A stretch of 64,000 bases of DNA from Sphingomonas sp. (GTDB lineage Bacteria; Pseudomonadota; Alphaproteobacteria; Sphingomonadales; Sphingomonadaceae), in assembly GCF_017304635.1 (NCBI RefSeq), contig NZ_JAFKMA010000003.1, positions 5,001 through 69,000 of the forward strand, in the 5' to 3' direction. Both the position numbers and the translations under genes were made by a program. Positions 11,801 through 53,356 of the stretch are shown here, piece after piece; position 1 is the first letter of the stretch; each line of letters opens with the position of its first letter. The notes below the pieces were generated by a model. That model was given only the letters and a program-made list of their open reading frames with translations. It did no database searches and was not told the origin of the DNA.

Positions 11801-11922
11801 CCAACCGTCATCCCCGCGAAAGCGGGAACCCATCTCCTGCCGTCGGCCCGAACGCAAGGGCGGCTTCGGTCGCTGCGGGAGGTGGGTTCCCGCTTTCGCG
11901 GGGATGACGGTAGGAGGGTTGG
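11801..11922. repeat. Inverted pair of REP elements (family C)
   Basis: GTCATCCCCGCGAAAGCGGG (in 11807-11831) and its inverse TTCCCGCTTTCGCGGGGATG (in 11887-11911) face each other across ~55 bases, with outer CCAACC/GGTTGG ends. This is a BIME-like arrangement. Single copies or variants of the same family recur at 25450-25477, 30498-30530 and 30567-30592. Confidence 0.85.
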
Positions 11923-24081: not shown

Positions 24082-24104
24082 CGGCGTTCTGATCCAGAAA
24101 TTGG

Positions 24105-24174
24105 CCTCCCCGGCGAAGGCCGGGGTCCAGTTGCGAGCGGCTCGATGCTGGACCCCGGCCTTCGCCGGGGAGGC
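24105..24174. repeat. Inverted pair of REP elements (family C variant)
   Basis: CCTCCCCGGCGAAGGCCGGG with GTCCAG (24105-24130) and its inverse CTGGACCCCGGCCTTCGCCG with GGGAGGC (24148-24174), separated by 17 bases. It lies in the divergent interval between the ABC-F gene and the PepSY gene, so it is likely transcribed in one leader. Confidence 0.8.
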
Positions 24175-26905: not shown

Positions 26906-27158
26906 GGTCGATCGACATTCGGCTGATTGGCAGTGACGGATCGGCCAAAATGACACGTCACCCCGGCCTTGTGCCGGGGTCCACGAGGCGGCTTTTTCAT
27001 ACCAGAGTATCGAGCGATGCGCTGACGTTACGGAGGACGCCGGCACAAGGCCGGGGTGACGAGAATGTTTTATGAAAACCCGCTTTAAGCAAAGGGAGTA
27101 ATCCAGCCGTGCCTCCTTACTGGATTGCTTCGCTACGCACGGCGGTCTGACAACGAAC
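26906..27158. repeat. Repeat-filled interval (MITE-end motif, REP pair and Ala-type repeat)
   Basis: No gene is seen. GATCGACATTCGGCT at 26910-26924 matches the terminal repeat of the element at 30457-30638. A REP pair follows (GTCACCCCGGCCTTGTGCCG near 26959 and its inverse near 27040-27060). CTGGATTGCTTCGCTACGC at 27119-27138 is a third dispersed repeat, also present at 43616-43693. Confidence 0.7.
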
Positions 27159-30194: not shown

Positions 30195-30642
30195 CCGGGC
30201 GGTCGTTCCCCGGAACTGGGTGACGTGCCCCGCGACGATCCGTCAGCCCAGCCGGGTGCCGGCGTATGCAACGCCGCGTGGGCATCGCTTGATCCGCTTG
30301 CGCTAGAGAAAGCGGCCTGGTGGACCCCGGCACAGGGCCGGGGTGACGGCCTTTGCTATCGGGTGACCGGGTTCCGATACCGAATGTCGATCGGCCCAAA
30401 CCCGTTCGAAGCAGGAACCGCCGCCGACGCTGCGGTCACGCGCGGCGCCTAGGACGGATCGACATTCAGCTAACCGGTGAACGTCACTTCCATGTTCGTC
30501 ATCCCCGCGCAGTCGGGGATCCAGACTGGCTATATCCACAGCTTAAAACCGCCATTCTCGCGACTCTGGATCCCCGCCTGCGCGGGGATGACGAGCAACA
30601 GGTGGCTCGAAACGCTACATCATAGCTGAATGTCGATCGACG
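30195..30642. repeat. Repeat-rich interval with a MITE-like element
   Basis: No gene is seen in 448 bases. A REP palindrome (GGACCCCGGCACAGGGCCGG..., 30322-30349) is followed by an isolated inverse GATCGACATTCGGT end (30379-30392). Then comes a 182-bp element at 30457-30638 with perfect 15-bp inverted ends (GATCGACATTCAGCT / AGCTGAATGTCGATC) enclosing two facing REPs (30498-30530, 30567-30592). Confidence 0.7.
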
Positions 30643-43614: not shown

Positions 43615-44173
<559 letters not shown>

Positions 44174-50855: not shown

Positions 50856-50932
50856 GCGGCACCGGCCCGCTCCCCTACCCGGCCTCCCGTTTAGGATATG
50901 CTATGGGAGGTGGAGGAGTGGGCCGGTGCCGC
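50856..50932. repeat. ~77-bp hairpin between convergent genes (family A, copy 2)
   Basis: Arms share GGCACCGGCCC and CTCCCC/GGAG elements with the copy at 1512-1593, with a 4-base bulge and some G-U-type changes. The loop reads TTAGGATATGCTA, again containing TAGGATA. It starts 7 bases after the stop of the small gene and ends 6 bases before the purK stop. Confidence 0.8.
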
Positions 50933-50938
50933 TGCAAA

Positions 50939-52021
50939 CTACGCCGGCAGGTCGCGCCGCAGTCGGGTGACATGGCCCATCTTGCGCCCCGGTCGCGCAT
51001 CGCCCTTGCCGTAGAGGTGGAGGTGGGCGCCGGGCTCGGCGAGGATTTCGACCCAGCGGTCGCCGGCGTCGCCGATCAGATTCTCCATCTCGACCGCCGG
51101 CGCGGTCAGCGCGGTATCGCCGAGTGGCAGGCCGGCGATCGCGCGGATGTGGTTCTCGAACTGCGATGCCACCGCGCCTTCGATCGTCCAGTGCCCCGAA
51201 TTGTGCACGCGCGGCGCCATTTCGTTGAACACCGGCCCGGCGGCGGTCGCGAAGAACTCGCACGCCAGCACGCCGACATAATCGAGCGTGTCGGCGATCC
51301 GCCCGGTCAGCGCGGCAGCGACGCCCCATTGCGCGGCGATCTCGGCCGGCGCCGGCAAGGTCGAGGTCGCGAGGATACCGTCCACGTGCCGGTTCCACGG
51401 CGGCGGGTAGCTGACCATCGCACCGCCGGTGCCGCGCGCCAGGATGATCGAGAATTCGTGGCTGAACTCGACAAATCCTTCCAGGATCGCCGGACGCCCG
51501 CCGATCGCGCTCCACGCCGCCTCGGCTTCGTCGGGCGCGGCGATGCGCACCTGCCCCTTGCCGTCATAGCCGAGCCGCAGCGTCTTCAGGATCGCGGGCG
51601 CACCGATCTCGCCGAGCGCCGCGCGCAGTTCCTCCAGCGTCTCGACGCGCCGCCACGGCGCGGTCCGGCCGCCGATCGCATCGACGAACGCCTTCTCGTT
51701 GGCACGGTCTTGCGCGATCGCCAGCGCGGCGGGCGCGGGATGGACCGGCACCTTGCCCGCCAGATAGTCGATCGGCTCGATCGCGATATTCTCGAACTCG
51801 TAGGTCACGACGTCGCAACGCGCCGCCATCTCGTCGAGCACGATGCGGCTGTGATAGTCGGCGCGGGTAAAGCTTGACGCGGTCTGCGCCGCGACGCTTT
51901 CGGCATCGGGCGCGAGGATGTGGGTGTGGTAGCCGAGCTCGGCGGCCGCCGACGCCAGCATCCGGCCGAGCTGGCCGCCGCCGAGGATGCCGATCGTGGA
52001 GCCGGGGGGCAGGACTGTCAC
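50939..52021 (-). CDS. purK: N5-carboxyaminoimidazole ribonucleotide synthase
   Basis: Purine pathway: carboxylates AIR to N5-CAIR with ATP and bicarbonate. The 360-residue ATP-grasp protein begins GSTIGILGGGQLGRMLASAAAELG, has LKTLRLGYDGKGQ, EGFVEFSHEFSIILARG and EFFATAAGPVFNEMAPRVHNSGHWTIEGA. It is downstream of purE, whose product mutates its product to CAIR. Confidence 0.97.
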   Translation of the reverse strand: MTVLPPGSTIGILGGGQLGRMLASAAAELGYHTHILAPDAESVAAQTASSFTRADYHSRIVLDEMAARCDVVTYEFENIAIEPIDYLAGKVPVHPAPAALAIAQDRANEKAFVDAIGGRTAPWRRVETLEELRAALGEIGAPAILKTLRLGYDGKGQVRIAAPDEAEAAWSAIGGRPAILEGFVEFSHEFSIILARGTGGAMVSYPPPWNRHVDGILATSTLPAPAEIAAQWGVAAALTGRIADTLDYVGVLACEFFATAAGPVFNEMAPRVHNSGHWTIEGAVASQFENHIRAIAGLPLGDTALTAPAVEMENLIGDAGDRWVEILAEPGAHLHLYGKGDARPGRKMGHVTRLRRDLPA

Positions 52022-52069: not shown

Positions 52070-52097
52070 GGCCCTTCGACAAGCTCAGGGCGAACGG
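52070..52097. repeat. Dispersed palindrome GCCCTTCGACAAGCTCAGGG (family F)
   Basis: GGCCCTTCGACAAGCTCAGG then GCGAACGG lies between purE and purK. The core self-pairs weakly. This exact sequence type is a common intergenic repeat in proteobacteria (family knowledge). Confidence 0.8.
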
Positions 52098-52106
52098 AAT
52101 GTGGAA

Positions 52107-52586
52107 CTATTCGGGATCGATCGCGACGCCATCGGTCTGGTTCGCGCGCCACGCTTGCAATCGTTCGGCCAGCGCGTCGTCGCTCGTCGCCAGTATCGCT
52201 GCCGCCAGCAGGCCGGCATTGATCGCGCCGGGCTTGCCGATCGCCAGCGCGCCCACCGGAATACCGCCCGGCATCTGGACGATCGAATAGAGGCTGTCGA
52301 CGCCCTTCAGCGCCTTACTCTCGACCGGCACGCCGAGCACCGGCAGATGCGTCATCGCCGCCGCCATGCCGGGCAGGTGCGCCGCACCGCCAGCGCCCGC
52401 GATGATGACCTTCAATCCGCGACCGGCCGCGCTATTCGCATAATCGTAGAGGCGTTGTGGCGTACGGTGAGCCGATACGACCTTCGTTTCGTACGGCACG
52501 CCCAATCCGTCGAGCTTGTCGGCGGCATGGCGCATCGTGTCCCAATCGGACGTGCTGCCCATGATGATGCCGACCAACGGTTGCAT
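52107..52586 (-). CDS. purE: N5-carboxyaminoimidazole ribonucleotide mutase
   Basis: Converts N5-CAIR to CAIR. The 159-residue class I PurE has [54 protein letters not shown] and the [23 protein letters not shown] block. It is the first gene of purE-purK. Its leader contains the nested 270-bp element at 52629-52898. Confidence 0.97.
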
Positions 52587-52628
52587 CGCCGCCGCCTAGC
52601 CGGGGTGACGCGTCAGGGCAACCGCTCT

Positions 52629-52898
52629 AGGGTCCAAACTCAAGCAGGACAAGGATCATGATCGCCCGGAGAAGGCCACCGGCAAGGAGCGTAGCGCCGT
52701 CGCGTAGCAGAGCTACGCGCAAGCAAGCGACGCCGTCCGGTGGCCTTCTCCAGGCGACCGCCTGCGGCGGCGGGCCGATTTCGGCGCCGGGCAGCGTTGC
52801 TTGGCGGTCAAGATGCCTCAGCATCGCTCCCTTCGCGCGCCTTGCCCGACACCGAAATCGGCTCCGTCATGACCCTGTCCTGATTGAGTTTGGACCCT
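52629..52898 (-). repeat. 270-bp nested inverted-repeat element upstream of purE
   Basis: 32-33-bp terminal inverted repeats (AGGGTCCAAACTCA...) at 52629-52661 and 52867-52898 enclose two arms. Arm A is 52662-52682 with 52737-52757, 21 bp, capped by CGCGTAGC-AGA-GCTACGCG. Arm B is 52775-52793 with 52843-52861, 19 bp, capped by GATGC-CTCA-GCATC. All three mismatches in arms A and B are C-A on the plus strand but G-U in the minus-strand RNA. It ends at the stop codon of the upstream gene and 42 bases before purE. MITE or structured purE leader. Confidence 0.7.
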
Positions 52899-53356
52899 TA
52901 GCAATGTCGCGCCAGCGCCAGCCCGCGCAGGAAGCCGCGCCGCGCCAGCCCGGCCTGGATGCCGATCGCCTTGCGCCGGTCGGCGGCGGCGGCGCCGCTG
53001 ACCTCGCGCACCACGCCGCGGAACGGGATCAGCGAGTTGACCACCGCTTTCCCGCCGAGCGCCGCCAGCGTCTCCGGCCGCGGCCCGCCACGATCGAGAT
53101 CGGGGCCGAGCACGGCATCGAGCGAGCGAAGCTGTGCGCGGATCGCGGGACATTTGCTGAGGCCCGCCGTCGCATAGGGCGCCTGCGCCGCGCGAGTCAG
53201 GACCGGTGGCACCTTCGTCTTGGCGAGCCCGACGTCGCGCACCGGCTGCGACACGATGCGTCCGGCCTGGTCGATGTTCGATCGCTTGTGCTGGGCGGAA
53301 GCGATACTCGACAGGGCAAGCAGAGCGGCGGCAATGGCAAGGCTTCGGATCATCAT
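52898..53356 (-). CDS. Sphingomonad secreted protein, tandem copy 2
   Basis: A 152-residue exported protein: signal peptide residues 1-22 (IAAALLALSSIASAQ), then a shared family body SQPVRDVGLAKTKVPPVLTRAAQAPY, GGKAVVNSLIPFRGVVREVSGAAAADRR and a Cys-terminal tail. I know no named domain; the family looks restricted to sphingomonads. The ATG at 53356 overlaps the TGA of its upstream paralogue. The TAA stop touches the end of the nested element. Confidence 0.78.
   Translation of the reverse strand: MMIRSLAIAAALLALSSIASAQHKRSNIDQAGRIVSQPVRDVGLAKTKVPPVLTRAAQAPYATAGLSKCPAIRAQLRSLDAVLGPDLDRGGPRPETLAALGGKAVVNSLIPFRGVVREVSGAAAADRRKAIGIQAGLARRGFLRGLALARHC

Follow-up and report, generated by a model that had tools for sequence, protein, structure and literature searches.

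A nested inverted repeat of 270 bp lies just upstream of purE in the window, which is the whole stretch of 64,000 nucleotides of Sphingomonas DNA that was analysed. The locus raises the question of whether purine synthesis is controlled here by a folded RNA leader or whether a mobile element has been inserted between two genes, both of which had been proposed from the letters of the sequence in an earlier note. The structure at 52629-52898 belongs to a non-coding family with dispersed copies and is not specific to purE. The reading preferred here, with a probability of about 0.9, is a MITE: a 268-bp non-coding element that goes into the TA of YTAR targets and is probably mobilised in trans by transposases of the IS5 family (IS427-group-like). 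On this reading its palindromes are not a purE RNA, and their pairing is most likely kept at the DNA level. The features of the locus are as follows.

50939..52021, minus strand: purK (NF004676, TIGR01161, PF02222)
52107..52586, minus strand: purE (TIGR01162, PF00731), 42 bases from 52629
52593..52621, minus strand: putative purE promoter, composed of TTGCCC (52616-52621), a 17-nt spacer and TAGGCG (52593-52598)
52628..52629, no strand: TA flank on the purE side, presumed copy of a 2-bp target duplication
52629..52660, plus strand: terminal inverted repeat and outer stem, arm 1; its first ~15 bp resemble the ends of IS5-family insertion sequences (ISs)
52630..52897, no strand: mobile core GGGTCC...GGACCC, 268 bp, non-coding; boundaries taken from the terminal inverted repeats, from empty sites and from comparing the flanks of 75 copies
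52662..52757, no strand: arm A, a 21-bp stem with a capped hairpin
52758..52770, no strand: small central hairpin between arms A and B
52774..52862, no strand: arm B, a 20-bp stem with a capped hairpin; contains two of the three wobble pairs of the earlier note
52867..52898, minus strand: terminal inverted repeat and outer stem, arm 2, partner of 52629..52660
52898..53356, minus strand: upstream ORF of 152 aa, secreted-looking by eye, whose TAA stop (52898-52900) abuts the end of the element

The nested inverted repeats described in the earlier note are present and fold far beyond shuffled sequences. In the arm comparison of the window copy, the outer arms (52629-52654/52873-52898) are 92% complementary over 26 nt without gaps, the arm A stem (52662-52682/52737-52757) is 95% complementary over 21 nt and the arm B stem (52774-52793/52843-52862) is 90% complementary over 20 nt. 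The outer stem and both inner stems of the three-way junction drawn earlier stand, and the additional hairpin at 52758-52770 makes the layout four-way. The fold z-scores are -14.4 for the purE-strand RNA, -12.7 for the opposite-strand RNA and -12.8 for the DNA, and in each case none of 200 shuffles folds equally well. The three mismatches of the inner stems, read by eye from the arms, are all C.A on the plus strand and hence G.U on the minus strand, as had been stated for this copy. The G+C content of the element is 66% and that of the window 67.5%. ORFs of at least 100 aa that overlap the element are mechanical and extend out of it, and the 268-bp core contains no transposase gene. A possible ORF in the loop of arm B (GGAGGG..ATG) was considered by eye.

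No Pfam or NCBIfam match was obtained for the upstream ORF at 52898-53356. This ORF and a minus-strand ORF ending at 53353 form a tandem of visibly similar putative secreted proteins.

Copies, ends and insertion sites

A genome-wide search for copies, as suggested in the earlier note, detected dispersed copies in the genome of the window and in many other genomes of the genus. Seven long matches, one of them the window copy, were obtained in the own genome, which comprises 3.18 Mb in 7 contigs. The element was found in 18 of 61 genomes, the own genome included; all 18 are among the 37 genomes of the genus, and none of the 24 genomes outside the genus contains it. In a genus-wide search at least 132 of 295 genomes gave matches, a lower bound because only two candidates per genome were scored. 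A pattern scan of named genomes yielded 39 stretches, mostly from Sphingomonas and also from Sphingobium nicotianae, a Qipengyuania MAG and other Sphingomonadales. Plasmid and phage collections gave no element match at E 1e-5. The copies occupy many different gene junctions. From 104 placements, 75 distinct full copies were obtained, of which 74 were aligned (L078, which carries an insertion, was excluded); a later set added 61 copies to give 136, of which 135 were aligned.

Several variant forms were observed. A second, smaller palindromic repeat composed of two G/C-rich hairpins sits within an arm of the element in L138, L147 and L154, and L157 (locus 1501) is a miniature, about 50 bp long, with hardly more than both ends. 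Lone element-like ends with no body are present at L132, L133, L141 and L149, two of them upstream of an apparent signal-peptidase gene (by eye).

A search with the end sequence detected element copies, lone ends and two ISs with a similar end type. The proteins of these ISs are IS5-type transposases: both pieces of one IS matched NF033580, and four pieces from two ISs matched DUF4096 or DDE domains, with the transposase pieces lying in different frames. Of the eight IS stretches examined, seven have both ends; these seven, of which two belong to the window's own genome, measure 839-853 bp from one TA to the other. The IS ends (e.g., TAGGGTCnGGACYCAT) and the MITE ends (TAGGGTC..ACTCA type) are similar, not letter for letter. 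In some copies the body is joined to another end, TAGAGCGG, so that one body occurs with at least two end types; no IS with the TAGAGCGG end was found among 10 genomes searched with the exact pattern. Mobilisation in trans by an IS5-family (IS427-group-like) transposase is probable from the shared end type: such transposases would recognise the GGGTC-type ends and move the element. Counting against the MITE reading, the IS ends resemble and do not equal the MITE ends, and the proposed link to a transposase runs through the ends.

The MITE alternative of the earlier note gains support from these IS-like ends and also from signs of recent transposition, from the TA flanks and from sites that are empty in relatives. 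In three genomes, pairs of elements that are 93-95% identical are found in flanks that are only 36-45% identical, and one genome (G081) has five copies. The flanks read Y-TA-element-TA-R in nine recent copies, comprising all seven copies of G280 and G081 and both copies of G257. Five relatives match across the gene junction of the window without the element at 73-80% identity. The empty junction of one G280 insertion is spanned by a match in G020, which reads CTCA there in place of the expected TTAA and has small gaps nearby. TA is present on both sides in 24 of 75 copies and in 45 of 136 in the larger set; the far flank of the window copy is TT (AA on the minus strand), unlike the TA at the purE side. 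Over the 75 copies, identity of the 2-bp flanks is at the shuffled level (25 versus a mean of 24.6), and the case for a target duplication therefore comes from the fresh copies, whose flanks point to insertion at a TA within YTAR. A duplication of more than 2 bp was considered and is not supported (the 3-bp flanks are identical in 7 of 75 copies versus 4.2 in shuffles, p = 0.11). The element thus has the properties of a MITE: it is short and lacks a transposase gene, its terminal inverted repeats are IS-like, a TA duplication is seen in fresh copies, and mobile copies are dispersed.

The insertion sites are associated with stop codons. This was analysed in the 66 of 75 copies with 600 nt or more of flanking sequence on each side. 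An ORF stop lies within 40 nt of the element, on either side, in 42 of these 66 copies versus 49 of 2365 random placements. The terminal TA is overlapped by an ORF stop in 30 of the 66, and 28 of the 36 stop-overlapping sides are TAG codons completed by the first G of the element. Five copies located between convergent ORFs show this completion on both sides. As a control, 9 of 85 YTAR sites of the window fall inside a stop codon (Fisher p = 1.6e-6, a rough value as the copies span many genomes). Gene ends occur on either side of the element (22 versus 31, p = 0.27), and there is no fixed orientation. The copies L082 and L336, which come from two genomes and look like different subfamilies of the element, share one gene junction, perhaps through re-use of the site.

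The proposed course of insertion is that the element goes into the TA of a YTAR site; in the window, it would have entered the stop codon of the ORF that precedes purE, or the position beside it. In many copies the TA together with the leading G of the element forms a TAG stop that leaves the protein intact, which may favour survival of the insertion; such insertions would be tolerated because the protein stays unchanged. A transposon of this kind can enter stop codons and supply the host with a new stop from its own end.

Covariation and strand bias of the arms

Covariation commonly counts as strong proof of a functional RNA, and the window family presents extreme covariation in mobile DNA. 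In the 74 aligned copies, 70 of the 84 predicted pairs are changed on both sides in at least one copy with the pair kept, and the loops are conserved among copies. In a true RNA, the one-sided changes that are tolerated give G.U on the transcribed strand. The balance of G.U and A.C among broken pairs consequently provides an internal test that separates RNA from DNA-level pairing. RNase P, represented by the 30 best of 61 matches in genomes of the genus, served as the control and showed 82 derived G.U and 8 A.C, with 30 and 37 on the antisense strand. For the element, derived G.U:A.C is 130:109 on the purE strand (Fisher p = 4e-11 versus RNase P) and 129:79 on the non-purE strand, a weak lean (p = 6e-4).

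The individual stems differ in their bias. In the 135 copies, the stems without three special columns have 123 G.U on the purE strand versus 177 on the other. The bias is towards the purE strand in arm B (37:10, plus 72:9 in columns 50 and 52) and towards the other strand in arm A (24:67) and in the outer stem (62:100). Two arm-B columns favour purE-strand G.U by 25:2 and 17:3 in the 74 copies, and purE-strand G.U is the commonest state in columns 153/254 and 181/224. Arms A and B are partly inverted relatives that cross-match in the search of the own genome, and the lean may therefore follow the orientation of the hairpin and not one transcript. The purE-strand wobbles are half of a mirrored pattern. 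The wobble bias toward a purE-strand RNA that had been read from the window copy holds for that copy and for arm B; it does not extend to arm A, the outer stem or the overall ratio. The covariation analysis of aligned copies, also suggested earlier, is similarly divided: pairing covaries strongly, and the strong G.U bias typical of an RNA is absent on the purE strand. As the stems covary without a strong RNA strand bias, pairing is most likely kept at the DNA level.

The arms could be kept complementary by arm-to-arm correction, e.g., by template switching in replication, or alternatively because selection favours a cruciform of the DNA or a structure used in transposition. Template switching creates compensatory changes and loop inversions (PMC8794818). 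In non-orthologous pairs of copies, one-arm differences are flat at 2.7-4.3 per comparison from ~98% to ~80% identity, whereas Watson-Crick changes on both arms are 0 in the 13 pairs at ~98% and reach 13 per comparison in the 299 pairs at ~80%, the paralog pairs in this comparison not being independent of each other. The ortholog pairs L258/259, L260/261 (identical) and L262/263 (one difference) are absent from it because copies with identical flanks were skipped. The flat one-arm and rising two-arm counts suggest that mismatches arise and are then undone or matched. Among the most divergent copies (55-60% identity, unpaired columns), 30-35% of stem pairs are one-arm-different or broken.

We tentatively favour arm-to-arm correction over selection for DNA structure. 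Under it the element would be a concerted palindrome whose arms copy each other in place and generate the covariation expected of an RNA, transversional pair swaps included, without any selection for an RNA; its probability is put slightly below even. The loop of arm A is inverted in 2 of 75 copies (L060 and L064, with one further copy ambiguous), as expected from exchange between arms. At a fixed site, the pair L044/L322 (flanks 84% and 80% identical) has nine two-arm changes and one one-arm change, which is hard to square with selection acting only through transposition. A MITE whose arms are kept by selection for a cruciform or hairpin seen by the transposase or a host protein, and not by arm copying, is also a serious possibility, though we would wager against it. 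The near strand symmetry of mismatches and two-arm changes and the conserved loops are consistent with such selection, and transversions are more abundant among two-arm changes (337 of 952) than among one-arm changes (86 of 424), which plain copying does not predict; the many broken pairs of the most divergent copies count in the same direction. The fixed-site pair L089/L092, with one two-arm and six one-arm changes, also goes against arm copying. A third fixed-site pair, L342/L345, has no two-arm and one one-arm change. The pair L082/L336, with 19 two-arm and four one-arm changes, looks like two subfamilies at one site.

An RNA-level explanation would be a dispersed structured RNA, or a terminator or mRNA-processing site at the 3' ends of genes, that is selected as RNA and only incidentally mobile. 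The stop codons within 40 nt of 42 of the 66 copies, the very strong covariation and a weak excess of G.U pairs in the non-purE strand (129:79, and 177:123 in the fixed stems) are in its favour, but this excess is far under the 82:8 of RNase P, orientation relative to gene ends is not fixed (22 versus 31, p = 0.27), and insertion into the TA of stop codons may alone account for the position. A consensus scan of 52400-53100 found no intrinsic terminator with a T run, and the explanation is considered unlikely.

The purE upstream region

The putative promoter block at 52593-52621 falls between the element and the purE start codon. The upstream comparison took 19 of 30 purE loci, those matching a start pattern. 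TTGCCC-N17-TA was identified in 14 of the 19 regions, the window included (13 of the 18 others), 10 of them at an equal distance from the start codon and four further upstream. Of the remaining regions, two have TTGCTC-N17-TA and three have neither. The block was missed by a sigma-70 consensus scan. Among the other purE loci fetched, 0 of 29 carry the element, and 290 of 295 genomes matched the joined flanks. Rfam searches of window positions 52300-53200 and of six loci gave only sub-threshold matches; a known RNA family was thus rejected for want of a match above the gathering score.

A cis-acting purE-strand RNA leader or riboswitch-like element controlling purEK, as proposed in the earlier note, is rejected on comparative grounds as very improbable: it would agree with a position on the same strand and 42 nt upstream of purE, a distance correctly given before, with the three inner mismatches of the window copy that are all purE-strand wobbles and with the two arm-B columns that favour G.U there, but the element occupies many junctions and none of the 29 other purE loci, five relatives share the junction without it, a conserved promoter-like block separates it from purE, no Rfam family exceeds the threshold, and the bias of arm A and of the outer stem is towards the other strand. 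Transcription of purE starting downstream of 52629, which the earlier note had named as evidence against its leader, is closely approached by this block, on comparative grounds and not by RNA-seq.

One copy (G030:C12:362334-362600) lies ~1.2 kb from the purE match of its genome, which was taken as coincidence. A palindrome, CCCTTCGACAAGCTCAGGGCGAACGG, is located at 52072-52097 between purE and purK and is single in the window; it resembles a common dispersed repeat.

Related systems and other palindromes

The ISs with similar ends resemble the IS427 group of the IS5 family in their end type, their length of 839-853 bp, their two-frame transposase and their TA flanks, the group being named here by resemblance. 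The Paracoccus elements of this group are 832-865 bp long with 2-bp repeats, and 4 bp in one entry (PMC3281130). The window element differs from this group in that it has no transposase gene, contains inner palindromes and has ends identical to those of no IS found here.

Bacterial MITEs such as QMITE2, ERIC, RUP and Chunjie (PMC10969869) are likewise short, non-coding, multi-copy elements with terminal inverted repeats, strong predicted folding and presumed mobilisation in trans. Compared with these, the window family is distinguished by nested four-way covarying palindromes and at least two end types per body, is not AT-rich and regenerates stop codons. Template-switch mutations (PMC8794818) share with the window family seemingly instantaneous compensatory changes and loop inversion; those mutations concern RNA genes, whereas here the process would act on a mobile DNA repeat with no strong RNA strand signature.

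No description of the family was found in the literature searched; ISfinder and most subscription papers lay outside this scope, so one may exist. The unusual feature is the nested, concertedly evolving palindrome, and the mobility of the MITE family is ordinary. If the arms do copy each other, RNA discovery by covariation would meet a natural false positive in this family, which would also offer a natural setting for measuring arm-to-arm correction in bacteria.

Other long palindromes were noticed in the window at 11801-11914, 24104-24174, 26956-27061, 30493-30597 and 43617-43692, of the kinds CGTCATCCCCGCG, CCCCGGC and GTCATTGC..GCAATCCAG. The palindromes at 1512-1593 and 50856-50932 have a common GCGGYRCCGGCCCGCTCCCC arm.
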